Positions 6,926-9,867 of a stretch of 10,406 nt of DNA are shown here, in pieces; positions within the stretch are counted from its first letter, which is position 1; each line of letters starts with the position of its first letter. This stretch comes from an uncultured Clostridia bacterium. Its GTDB lineage: Bacteria > Bacillota > Clostridia > Oscillospirales > Ruminococcaceae. Made by a program: the position numbers and the translations under genes. Below the pieces are notes generated by a model that did no database searches, had not been told where the DNA came from, and was given only the letters and a program-made list of their open reading frames with translations. Location of the stretch: assembly GCA_946183095.1 (NCBI GenBank), contig CAMHBE010000044.1, positions 1-10,406 on the forward strand, written 5' to 3'.

Positions 6926-7621
6926 ATGGATAAAACGTTGTTGTATGTACTTTGTTTCGCGGCTGCCGTCATTGTGCCGTATCTTATAAGCGGTGTGAAC
7001 TCCGCGATAATCGTGACAAAGATAAAGTCCGGGCAGGATATAAGAACTCTCGGCAGCGGCAATGCCGGACTGACAAACACTCTCCGTACACAGGGCAAGG
7101 CCGCCGCGCTGTTCGTGCTTATAGGCGATATTTTAAAGGGCGTACTGTCGGTCGTGTTCGTTCATCTCATTTTCCGAGGACTGCTCGGGATAGATACATA
7201 TTCGCACACCGAGGGCTGGTCGTGGGTGAATTACCTCGCCGGTATCTTCTGCGTACTCGGACACGTTTTCCCCCTGTACTACGGATTCAAGGGCGGAAAG
7301 GGGATACTCGTCACATTTGCCGCGATGCTCGCGATAAACTGGATAGCCGGAGTCGTGCCGTTCCTGATATTCGCGGTGGTCGTGGCGATATCGAGATATG
7401 TGTCCCTCGGCTCCATAACCGCCGCCGCCTGCTATCCCTTTGCGGTGCTCATATTCTCACTGATGCAGAATGACAGCGCCGCGTGGATATGTTTCGGTCT
7501 TTCGGCGATCATCGGCGCAATGCTGATAATCATGCACCGCGAGAATATAAAAAGACTGCTCACACACACCGAAAAGAAGCTCGGACAGAAGTCCGCACCC
7601 GAAAAGGAGGATGCACAATGA
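6926..7621 (+). CDS. plsY: Acyl-phosphate:glycerol-3-phosphate acyltransferase PlsY
   Basis: A 231-residue integral membrane enzyme that transfers an acyl chain from acyl-phosphate to glycerol-3-phosphate, the first committed step of phospholipid synthesis in most Bacteria. The three PlsY motifs are all visible: GSGNAGLTN (43-51) after DIR; GHVFP...FKGGKG (112-126), the glycine-rich glycerol-phosphate site; and HRENIKRL (204-211). Several hydrophobic segments (about 5-30, 60-86, 102-120, 127-155, 160-180, 186-203) fit the multi-pass fold. It is slightly longer than typical (around 200 residues) because of an insertion near 88-100 and a charged, probably disordered C-terminal tail after 213. 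ATG 6926 is preferred over the in-frame TTG 6920 because AAGG lies 8 nt upstream. The esterase gene overlaps its stop by 4 nt. Confidence 0.96.
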   Translation: MDKTLLYVLCFAAAVIVPYLISGVNSAIIVTKIKSGQDIRTLGSGNAGLTNTLRTQGKAAALFVLIGDILKGVLSVVFVHLIFRGLLGIDTYSHTEGWSWVNYLAGIFCVLGHVFPLYYGFKGGKGILVTFAAMLAINWIAGVVPFLIFAVVVAISRYVSLGSITAAACYPFAVLIFSLMQNDSAAWICFGLSAIIGAMLIIMHRENIKRLLTHTEKKLGQKSAPEKEDAQ

Positions 7622-8697
7622 ACAGGTATATCATTGATGAAAAGAATGTGAAACTGACAGGACGCGGGACATACGACGAAGACGGCATATACTGGTGCGC
7701 TCTTTCGGGAAGCGGCTTCGAGTGTCATTTCACCGGTTCGTATCTTGCGATAACACTTGTCGGCGACGGCGCGGCGGAGATACCGGACAATGACCTGAAC
7801 TGGGCGAGATATGCCATTTATGTGAACGGTATCAGGGTAATGGAGGGGCTGCTGAACAATTTCACGACCGTCAGAAAAATAGAGGTCATAAAAGCGCCGC
7901 AGGGCGTGACCGTCGGAGCGGATATCAAGTTCATCAAGCTGTCGGAATGCGCGATGTCTACTGTCGGTATCTGCCCGATAGAGTGCGAGGGCGAGGTCGC
8001 GCCCATACCCGCAAAGCCGCTGAAACTGGAGTTTATCGGCGATTCGATAACCTGCGGCTACGGGGTGGATGAATACGACGCGAACTCGAAGTTCCGGACG
8101 GCGACGGAGGACTTCACAAAGGGTTATGCCTACAAAACCGGAAAGCTGCTCGACGCAGATGTATGGGCATTCTCCATAAGCGGTTGGGGCATCATCTCCG
8201 GTTATACGGAAGAAGAAACGCCCCGTGACGACCAGCTCCTGCCGCCGTACTATGAGAAGCTGGGGTATTCTTTTCAGAAGTTTGACGACCGCGACGGCTG
8301 GCAGCCGCAGGACTGTTCGTGGGATTTCACGAAGTATGTGCCCGATCTGATAATCGTCAATCTCGGAACGAACGACGCGAGCTACTGCAAGGACAACGAC
8401 GAGCGCAAGGCTCTTTACACCGAGAAGTATGCGGAATTTCTCGGAGATGTCCACAGATGCAATCCCTCGTCGAAGCTGCTGTGCGTGCTGGGCATTATGG
8501 ACGACCGCTGCTGTGACGCAATGGAAAAGGCAGTGCGGATATTCAGCGAAAAAAGCGGGTTTACGGATATCCACACCATGCGTTTCACACCGCATGACGG
8601 TTCACTCGGCTACGGTGCCGACTGGCACCCGTCACCGGCGACCCATGACAAGTCTGCGAAACTGCTTGCCGAAAAGATACAGGAAATAATGAAATGA
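7618..8697 (+). CDS. SGNH/GDSL esterase, carbohydrate esterase family 2-like
   Basis: A 359-residue hydrolase with two domains. Residues about 1-125 form a beta-rich sandwich typical of the CE2 N-terminal domain. Residues about 135-359 form an SGNH domain with block I FIGDSITCGYG (139-149, Ser143), block II Gly near GWG (189-191), block III NLGTND (248-253, Asn252) and block V DWH (335-337, His337). CE2 enzymes remove acetyl groups from xylan or other sugars, sometimes with only a Ser-His dyad. The closest pattern is that family, but the natural substrate is not shown. There is no signal peptide, so it appears intracellular and may act on imported acetylated oligosaccharides or another acyl ester. 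ATG 7618 has AAAAGGAGG 7 nt upstream and overlaps the plsY stop (ATGA). The gene ends with tandem stops TGA TAA. Confidence 0.9.
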   Translation: MNRYIIDEKNVKLTGRGTYDEDGIYWCALSGSGFECHFTGSYLAITLVGDGAAEIPDNDLNWARYAIYVNGIRVMEGLLNNFTTVRKIEVIKAPQGVTVGADIKFIKLSECAMSTVGICPIECEGEVAPIPAKPLKLEFIGDSITCGYGVDEYDANSKFRTATEDFTKGYAYKTGKLLDADVWAFSISGWGIISGYTEEETPRDDQLLPPYYEKLGYSFQKFDDRDGWQPQDCSWDFTKYVPDLIIVNLGTNDASYCKDNDERKALYTEKYAEFLGDVHRCNPSSKLLCVLGIMDDRCCDAMEKAVRIFSEKSGFTDIHTMRFTPHDGSLGYGADWHPSPATHDKSAKLLAEKIQEIMK

Positions 8698-8703
8698 TAA
8701 AAC

Positions 8704-8732
8704 AATGTCCCTCACCGAAAGTGTGGGACATT
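8704..8732 (+). terminator. Hairpin after the esterase gene (probable terminator, copy 1)
   Basis: AATGTCCC and GGGACATT (8704-8711 and 8725-8732) plus an inner CAC/GTG pair around CGAAA form a stem with one T-T mismatch, 7 nt after the second stop. Only TTTAG follows on the plus strand, so the T-run is weak. On the minus strand a short T-run (GTTTT) follows, so it may also act on leftward transcripts. A near-copy lies at 9008-9038 in the same orientation. Confidence 0.5.
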
Positions 8733-8759
8733 TAGTCTGTCAAAAAACTTTATCCGTAT

Positions 8760-9000
8760 TCAATATCATTTCGGTGCAGCGTTAGGCTGCCGCAGGTCAA
8801 CTGCTGACCGCTTGGTAAGCGCGCATCGTGCGCGCCTTTGGCGGTCAAGGCACTGCATCGTGCAGAGGGGCGCGCAGCCCTTGTGCCGTCTGCCAATGCA
8901 GGAAGCATTGGTAGGGCAATCCAAAGCGTGCACGACGCACGCAGATTATAATTGCCCGAAAAGACAAAGCGCGAACGCGCCGCTGCACCTACTTTATTGA
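8760..9000. other. Structured intergenic element: closed multi-arm fold (ncRNA or palindromic repeat candidate)
   Basis: The pairing found by eye covers nearly the whole segment. The closing stem is GGTGCAGCG (8773-8781) with CGCTGCACC (8981-8989), extended outward by TCAATA/TATTGA (8760-8765, 8995-9000). Inside, in order, are 8792-8795/8801-8804; 8805-8811/8841-8847 enclosing GCGCGCA-TCG-TGCGCGC (8819-8835); 8849-8853/8883-8887 enclosing two small hairpins (8854-8864 and 8868-8880); CCAATGC/GCATTGG (8893-8911); GGGCAAT/ATTGCCC (8914-8957) enclosing GCGTGC/GCACGC (8926-8942); and 8969-8980. Complementarity is symmetric, so the transcribed strand is unknown, and no promoter is evident inside. 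The short open frames here (62 and 86 codons) lack ribosome binding sites and look spurious. It matches no RNA family I know. Confidence 0.5.
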
Positions 9001-9007
9001 CACGCTG

Positions 9008-9038
9008 CAATGTCCCTCACTGAACGTGAGGGGCATTG
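9008..9038. terminator. Hairpin beyond the noc stop (copy 2 of the 8704 hairpin)
   Basis: CAATGTCCCTCAC (9008-9020) pairs with GTGAGGGGCATTG (9026-9038) over 13 positions, one of them a G-T wobble, with loop TGAAC. It begins 4 nt beyond the noc stop on the minus strand, but no T-run follows in that direction. On the plus strand TGCTTTAT follows. It could terminate either transcript weakly. It repeats the 8703-8732 hairpin almost base for base in the same orientation. Confidence 0.45.
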
Positions 9039-9042
9039 TGCT

Positions 9043-9867
9043 TTATGACTGCCTGAGCGGTATTTTGACCACATATTCCACGAAATCTTCTGTGCGGTTC
9101 TTCTGCGTCTCGCAGTTTATACCCGCTTCTTTCATGGCGTCTATGGTCTTGTTGAAAGTGTTTATATACAGATTGACTGCGCGGTAACTCCAGCGGCGGG
9201 TAACTTTCTGTTTCGGCGGTTCGCCTTTCAGCAGCGCTTCTATATAGGAATCCGTCTGCGATGTGTTGAGATCGTTCGTGCCGATGTAGTGTATCGCGTC
9301 GGCTCGCTGCTCGTCGGGTAGCCGCAGCAGTGCGCGCGCCTGCCGTTCCGTCAGCTTGTACCGTACAACGAGCGCCTTATCCTCGTCGGACAGTTTCAGC
9401 AGCCGCAGCTTGTTCGCTATCGTTGACTGCGCGGTGCCGAGCCTTGCGGCAGTCTCCTCCTGTGTCAGCCCGTAGAAGTCTATCAGGTTCTTTATCGCGT
9501 AGGCTTCCTCTATGAAGCTGAGATCCTGTCTTTGCAGGTTTTCGAGCACTGCGAGCACCGCACTGTCCTTTGCCGTTGCGCTGATGATGATGCAGGGCAC
9601 GAAACTCATGTTTAGCAGCTTGCACGCCCGCAGTCTGCGCTCTCCGGCTATCAGCTCATAGGTCAGGCTGTTCTCGACGCGCCTTACCGTGAGGGGCTGC
9701 AGGATACCGTTCTGCTGTATGCTGACCGCGAGCCTTGACAGCTCGTAGTCGTCGAAGATGACCCTCGGCTGTGCGGGGTTGGGAACTATCGCGCTGACGG
9801 GTATCTCCACGACCTTGTTCACCGCAGTCTCTGCCGTGTTTTCCTGAGTTTTCTGAAATATTGCCAT
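9043..9867 (-). CDS. noc: Noc-type ParB family protein (nucleoid occlusion)
   Basis: A 274-residue ParB/Spo0J/Noc family DNA-binding CTPase. The N-terminal CTP-binding domain shows NPAQPR (30-35), GILQPLTVR (54-62), GERRLRAC (75-82) and ENLQRQDL (109-116). A helix-turn-helix covers about 134-158, and a C-terminal dimerisation region lies at about 222-274. It fits Noc better than chromosomal ParB. The recognition segment QSTIANKLRLLKL matches Bacillus Noc as I recall it, with Gln147 and Lys153 where ParB has other residues, and the C terminus aligns with Noc's. The short MAIFQK start could be the membrane-targeting helix by which Noc ties DNA to the membrane and blocks division over the nucleoid. 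ATG has CGGAGGAA about 9 nt upstream. The usual rsmG/parAB neighbours are not in this window. Confidence 0.82.
   Translation of the reverse strand: MAIFQKTQENTAETAVNKVVEIPVSAIVPNPAQPRVIFDDYELSRLAVSIQQNGILQPLTVRRVENSLTYELIAGERRLRACKLLNMSFVPCIIISATAKDSAVLAVLENLQRQDLSFIEEAYAIKNLIDFYGLTQEETAARLGTAQSTIANKLRLLKLSDEDKALVVRYKLTERQARALLRLPDEQRADAIHYIGTNDLNTSQTDSYIEALLKGEPPKQKVTRRWSYRAVNLYINTFNKTIDAMKEAGINCETQKNRTEDFVEYVVKIPLRQS

Follow-up and report, generated by a model that had tools for sequence, protein, structure and literature searches.

What is the densely folding segment that separates a GDSL/SGNH-type esterase gene from a convergent ParB/Noc-type gene (noc) in an uncultured Clostridia bacterium of the Ruminococcaceae? 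The window analysed here is the stretch of 10,406 nucleotides that contains both genes (contig CAMHBE010000044.1, assembly GCA_946183095.1). An initial annotation of it described a 217-nt segment closed by a 9-bp stem and holding six arms, bracketed by two near-identical hairpins in the same orientation. It offered three readings, namely a dedicated structured RNA, a mobile palindromic repeat whose entry duplicated the host terminator, or a topological element near noc, and it proposed folding of both strands with shuffled controls, an Rfam search, a BLAST search with the segment and an analysis of covariation. We find strong support for the mobile repeat. The segment is very probably part of a MITE-like element, transposed by an enzyme acting in trans, that inserts at host terminator-type hairpins and generates a target-site duplication (TSD) of variable length centred on the dyad of the hairpin.

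The described architecture was borne out by the sequence (Table 1). In the minimum-energy RNA fold the outer stem encloses six branches, counted by eye, and the two flanking hairpins form a 30-nt direct repeat at a spacing of 305 with 87% identity. The copies differ at 4 of 30 positions, and the insertion is therefore not recent. On the top strand the element begins with TAGTCTGTCAAAAAA and ends with TTTATTGACACGCTG. Read on the minus strand, the T-rich TTGTTTTATCATTT comes after hairpin copy 1, so the original hairpin looks like the noc terminator, and copy 1 is probably that terminator, judging from these letters. A terminator consensus scan flagged neither host hairpin; its two matches both lie inside the element on the minus strand, where they could bring about an early end of noc transcripts.

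Table 1 Features of the esterase–noc intergenic region and its neighbouring genes (window coordinates).
Feature	Position	Strand	Remarks
GDSL/SGNH-type esterase, CE2-like N-terminal domain	7483..8697	+	Predicted start; Pfam PF13472 (8.9e-13), PF17996 (1.5e-6); reads towards the element
Host stem-loop copy 1 (left half of target duplication)	8703..8732		26/30 identical to 9008-9037; abuts the left element end
Non-autonomous mobile element, 275 bp	8733..9007		Ends common to other copies; related pieces on at least 40 contigs
Left terminal repeat TAGTCTGTCAAAAAA	8733..8747	+
Core of nested hairpins, six branches	8773..8989		Outer 9-bp stem GGTGCAGCG (8773-8781) paired with CGCTGCACC (8981-8989), closing 217 nt; folds; pairing also in shorter 83-nt cores
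Right terminal repeat, CAGCGTGTCAATAAA on the minus strand	8993..9007	-
Host stem-loop copy 2 (right half of target duplication)	9008..9037
ParB/Noc-type protein	9043..9867	-	Pfam PF17762 (1.3e-27), PF02195 (7.3e-25); reads towards the element

The BLAST search showed that the segment recurs in its own genome (G000; 72% complete, 389 contigs), with at least 77 pieces on at least 40 contigs when 40 of the 113 first-look candidates were scored. The longest matches end within a few bases of both flanking hairpins and the flanking sequence varies among copies; hence the flanking hairpins are host sequence. Because the copies adjoin many different genes, with flanks that differ from copy to copy, an element tied to noc, as in the topological reading, is not supported. 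The two element ends are related to each other: one carries CAGTCTGTCAAAAAA and the opposite one, in inverted orientation, CAGCGTGTCAATAAA. They make up imperfect inverted terminal repeats that fit CAGnYTGTnRAwAAA. When two mismatches are allowed, the own genome contains 109 matches to the end pattern, compared with 65 for the reversed control, so single end matches prove little and paired ends are what count. Core length increases in modular steps (28, 58-59, 83-84 and 138-286 nt); longer cores are mostly the shorter arrangement with further hairpin units placed inside, and one unit occupies two different positions (L055 versus L025).

The modules can also be followed individually. One of them (CTCCCC..GGGGAGGTG..GAGGG.TGACCGACAGAC) is seen at two positions in own-genome elements (L004, L005, L006, L025 and L055), and units that look similar by eye are present in three other genomes, at L040 (G011), L162 (G065) and L157/L173 (G054). 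At L022, in the own genome, a further hairpin unit lies in the loop side of another arm, so that one hairpin is nested in another. A second repeat family, whose ends resemble GGGCACCTCTAAAAACC and GGTTTTTAGAGGAGCCC, adjoins elements of the present family at L011, L015, L053 and L059 of the own genome and sometimes takes the place of one of their ends.

The duplication is not confined to the window. In the own genome, direct repeats of 20-30 nt lie flush with the element ends, to within 1 nt, in seven of 25 end-pair rows, the window's among them. These repeats score 20-27, compared with at most 13 for mismatched pairs of left and right flanks, and they differ in sequence, six being strong stem-loops and one (L010) an A+T-rich palindrome. 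No such duplication was found in the remaining 18 rows, some of which are doubled or spurious end calls. Counted independently of any duplication, a stem scoring at least 7 lies within 4 nt of 17 of 25 left ends and 17 of 31 right ends, compared with 16 of 1228 windows drawn at random from these loci.

Elements with similar ends occur, to judge from their sequences, in other species of the genus. The exact left end was found in 13 of 71 genus genomes, the own genome included, although some of the matches lie within genes and look accidental. In G014, G054, G065 and G071, elements with other interiors stand between two hairpin copies; the window's element has no BLAST match in G014, and for the other three genomes the difference in the interior was judged by eye, some elements sharing one hairpin module. 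When 33 end sites in other species were scored (3 too-short sites skipped), 16 had a direct repeat scoring at least 15, 14 of them at offset 0; 12 of 330 control windows, drawn at random and not kept clear of elements, reached this score, with a maximum of 45. G014 is a complete genome on a single contig and contains 234 matches to a broadened end pattern, compared with 46 when the pattern is reversed; a search with a 601-bp member turns up 62 pieces in this genome.

When the loci were pooled, 242 candidate left ends could be matched to a possible right end. As a raw, uncontrolled count, 78 of these were flanked by a flush repeat of 12 nt or more, where 'flush' allows no offset on the left and up to 2 nt from the right-end pattern. 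The 78 sites were merged to 63 and then to 45 rows, because one element was seen from both strands or in several loci, and two of the rows (both L313) are probably one site, which leaves at most 44 sites. The rows comprise 32 from G014, 9 from other genus members and 4 from the own genome; the window's own copy falls outside this set because of a stricter mismatch limit. The elements are 140-608 bp long, their longest ATG-started frame encodes 93 amino acids, and they show what generally characterizes MITEs: short length without a transposase gene, terminal inverted repeats and a TSD. The duplication is exact in 26 of 45 rows and its length ranges from 13 to 37 nt. In 41 rows it is centred within 1 nt on a host dyad, the exceptions being L010, L269 and both L313 rows. 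By a common criterion (dyad score of at least 9, within 2 nt) 41 of 45 rows have such a dyad, compared with 21 of 892 random windows. The insertion therefore duplicates the whole palindrome, whatever its length. Over the 41 rows, TSD length correlates only moderately (r = 0.54) with the independently measured span of the stem-loop. A fold-based stem boundary gave scattered ends and r = 0.17, which we attribute to A/T tails joining the fold, and the dyad search was used instead. As an uncontrolled observation on gene context that is not used as evidence, a frame of 90 or more codons points towards 38 of the 45 rows and stops within 150 nt of them, but 16 of the 45 fall inside a frame of that size.

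A site without the element was found for one other copy. The two neighbours of the L055 insertion are adjacent in three relatives (G002, G011 and G056), where the alignment shows a spacer without the element, and in G011 this spacer contains one hairpin, by eye. The spacers belong to other species and have diverged, so they establish the absence of the element, not the exact joint. For the four other sites in the same query, no match across the joint was found among the matches listed. At noc, the esterase neighbour gave no tblastn match in the stretches downstream of the gene in the 19 of 26 noc loci examined, so there is no strict orthologous empty site. Could the two convergent genes then simply possess similar terminators of their own, with an unrelated palindromic repeat between them and no duplication by transposition? 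The four differences between the window's hairpins would agree with this, as would the origin of the empty sites in other species rather than in strains, but the exact flush duplications in 26 of the 45 pooled rows, of many sequences and lengths, and the failure of any mismatched pair of own-genome flanks to score above 13 make it very improbable. Instead, the many copies, the terminal inverted repeats, the duplications flush with the ends and the orthologous site without the element all favour insertion of a mobile repeat.

Two further sets of loci have an end of this type next to a hairpin. Directly after noc in a relative (L133 / L183), end sequences CTGTCTGTCAAAAAATAAATTTTTGACAGACT lie in the noc terminator, and no partner duplication was found in the stretch examined; from the sequence, the same noc terminator was probably hit independently there. 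In the IMG/VR contigs L326 (14175-14191) and L329 (13882-13898), which have similar flanks, a hairpin is immediately followed by the same end sequence, close to the end of the examined stretch (L326) or of the contig (L329); a partner end was seen at neither.

The strong fold raises the question of whether the segment is a structured non-coding RNA gene, or a 3'UTR RNA with a function of its own, whose fold is under selection. Folding energies lie below those of all dinucleotide shuffles on both strands: the core (8773-8990) has z = -4.9 on the plus and z = -4.9 on the minus strand as RNA and z = -5.3 as DNA (0 of 200 shuffles as low in each case), and the 335-nt segment, which folds with one flanking hairpin paired to the other, has z = -8.3 (+) and -7.5 (-) (0 of 100 shuffles as low, each). 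In nine 83-nt cores all 216 of 216 pair cells are standard pairs, a proportion that drops to 29-56% when the partners are slid. The covariation analysis came out divided, with a score above all 500 shuffles and only 3 pairs changed on both sides, a number that 185 of 500 shuffles also reach. Palindromic DNA would yield the identical pairing pattern; the pairing shows palindromes to be maintained or swapped as whole units and does not show RNA to be the form selected. Departures in the outer stem (9 G-U, 4 A-C and 4 other in 306 cells, the rows not being fully de-duplicated) have no clear strand preference. A strand test based on loose arm patterns was too noisy and was dropped, and the outer-stem count alone was retained. 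Hairpin modules are gained, lost and swapped among exchangeable cores of 28 to 286 nt. The window has no Rfam match at gathering scores and the interval 8690-9050 none up to E = 10, so that Rfam 15 places the element in no known structured RNA family, and a scan found no match to a sigma-70-like promoter. We consequently regard a selected RNA as improbable, if somewhat less so than a pair of pre-existing terminators, and continue with the transposable element.

No transposase bounded by the element ends was found with four transposase models and limited scans, several of the assemblies being incomplete. The IS30 model NF033563 matches 10 of 71 genus genomes and has 0 matches in the own genome (72% complete) and in the complete G014. 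In the IS30 loci scanned (11 and 3 more), matches to the end pattern are no more than scattered and imperfect, and by eye none of them frames the gene. In six genomes searched with rve (PF00665), G065 and G071 have no match; the matches in G000 and G054 were read as IS21-like gene pairs and those in G014 as IS3-like, and were rejected, and the four loci in G075, scanned for ends only, revealed no transposase gene bounded by them. In the same six genomes DDE_Tnp_1 (PF01609) gave one broken frame, in G014, without matching ends. Neither 40 stretches downstream of listed forward-strand end matches in G014 nor two scans of viral contigs (7 and 12 stretches) revealed an element with a transposase.

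Among known systems, the IS1202 family makes long target duplications of 24-29 bp. The present elements resemble it in the long duplications and differ in their wider length range; moreover, the ISNCY_2/IS1202 model NF033594 has 0 matches in the own genome, and its match in G014 (17.7 bits compared with a cut-off of 250) lies in a frame read as IS3-like and was rejected. Group IIC introns are, to our knowledge, ribozyme retroelements that make no target duplication, unlike the present elements. The preference for terminators is shared with them, given that group IIC introns insert at intrinsic terminator motifs (PMC4424553); Rfam gave no group II intron match in the window.

The closest parallel is IS1630, an IS30-type element of Mycoplasma fermentans from which the duplication of inverted-repeat targets of variable length is already known, according to the title of the IS1630 report and to two papers that cite it (PMC3317919, PMC7648426). 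According to the citing papers, four IS1630 copies in M. fermentans M64 have duplications of 16, 23, 25 and 26 bp, and IS1630 encodes its transposase and has 27-bp terminal repeats (PMC3317919/PMC7648426). The present elements likewise duplicate inverted-repeat targets of variable length, whereas, unlike IS1630 as described there, they have no long gene, share an imperfect end of about 15 bp and reach a high copy number. Membership in the IS30 family does not follow, since neither the own genome nor the complete G014 yielded an IS30 transposase. A narrower form of our main reading, not exclusive of it, has an IS30-family (IS1630-type) transposase as the enzyme, lost or missing from the assemblies. 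The IS1630 duplications speak for this; the genomes without a match to the IS30 model and the scanned IS30 loci, not framed by the end pattern, speak against it, and we hold it to be possible though rather unlikely.

Bacterial MITEs such as RUP, BOX, SPRITE and BrickBuilt are described as short gene-less folding repeats, some of which insert into one another (PMC10969869). For BrickBuilt, 3 of 4 copies carry TSDs, the lengths of which differ, and 10 of 19 copies have a predicted terminator or polyadenylation site next to them (PMC4596501). Unlike these repeats as described in those papers, the present elements duplicate a whole host terminator hairpin. The elements are best classed as a MITE-like family whose targeting resembles that of IS1630, and they differ from the described IS1630 case in their modular nested-hairpin body, gene-less state and scale. 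Among the open-licence papers listed by the literature searches, one of which gave the best 15 of 796 results, no title or abstract opening describes the family.

The position of the element, its flush ends and the dyad-centred duplication together imply that the enzyme joins the element at both outer edges of the palindrome. What it recognises may be the palindrome as such, which perhaps extrudes to form a hairpin or cruciform; the two strands would be broken at opposite sides of the palindrome base, and repair would copy the whole hairpin. Each of the convergent genes would then meet the near hairpin without a T-tract and read through the element as 3'UTR, and its transcripts could still stop at the far copy, which would retain the original T-rich side. 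For noc, the order after insertion would be a hairpin without a T-tract, the element and a hairpin with a T-rich tail. As a complete terminator would be left at the far side, the cost of insertion would be lowered and the event may be nearly harmless. The nested core would have changed through gain, loss and exchange of hairpin modules. More speculatively, and with considerable doubt on our part, the elements may be genus-wide parasitic repeats of Ruminococcus-type gut bacteria, mobilized by a transposase not yet described, which would know hairpins by their shape and cut them at the base, making the whole palindrome the target duplication; terminators would thereby serve as self-renewing landing sites, and nested cores would have arisen from the same insertion into the element's own palindromes.

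Most transposons duplicate a fixed few bases, the number being set by the enzyme. Here, the host palindrome seems to set the extent of the duplication, which points to recognition of DNA structure, and G014, a complete genome with many exact duplications, makes it possible to test this. The arrangement also suggests how an element can spread beside genes and yet leave each of them a usable terminator. Finally, it is a warning that strongly folding intergenic segments that look like RNA in these genomes can be mobile DNA.
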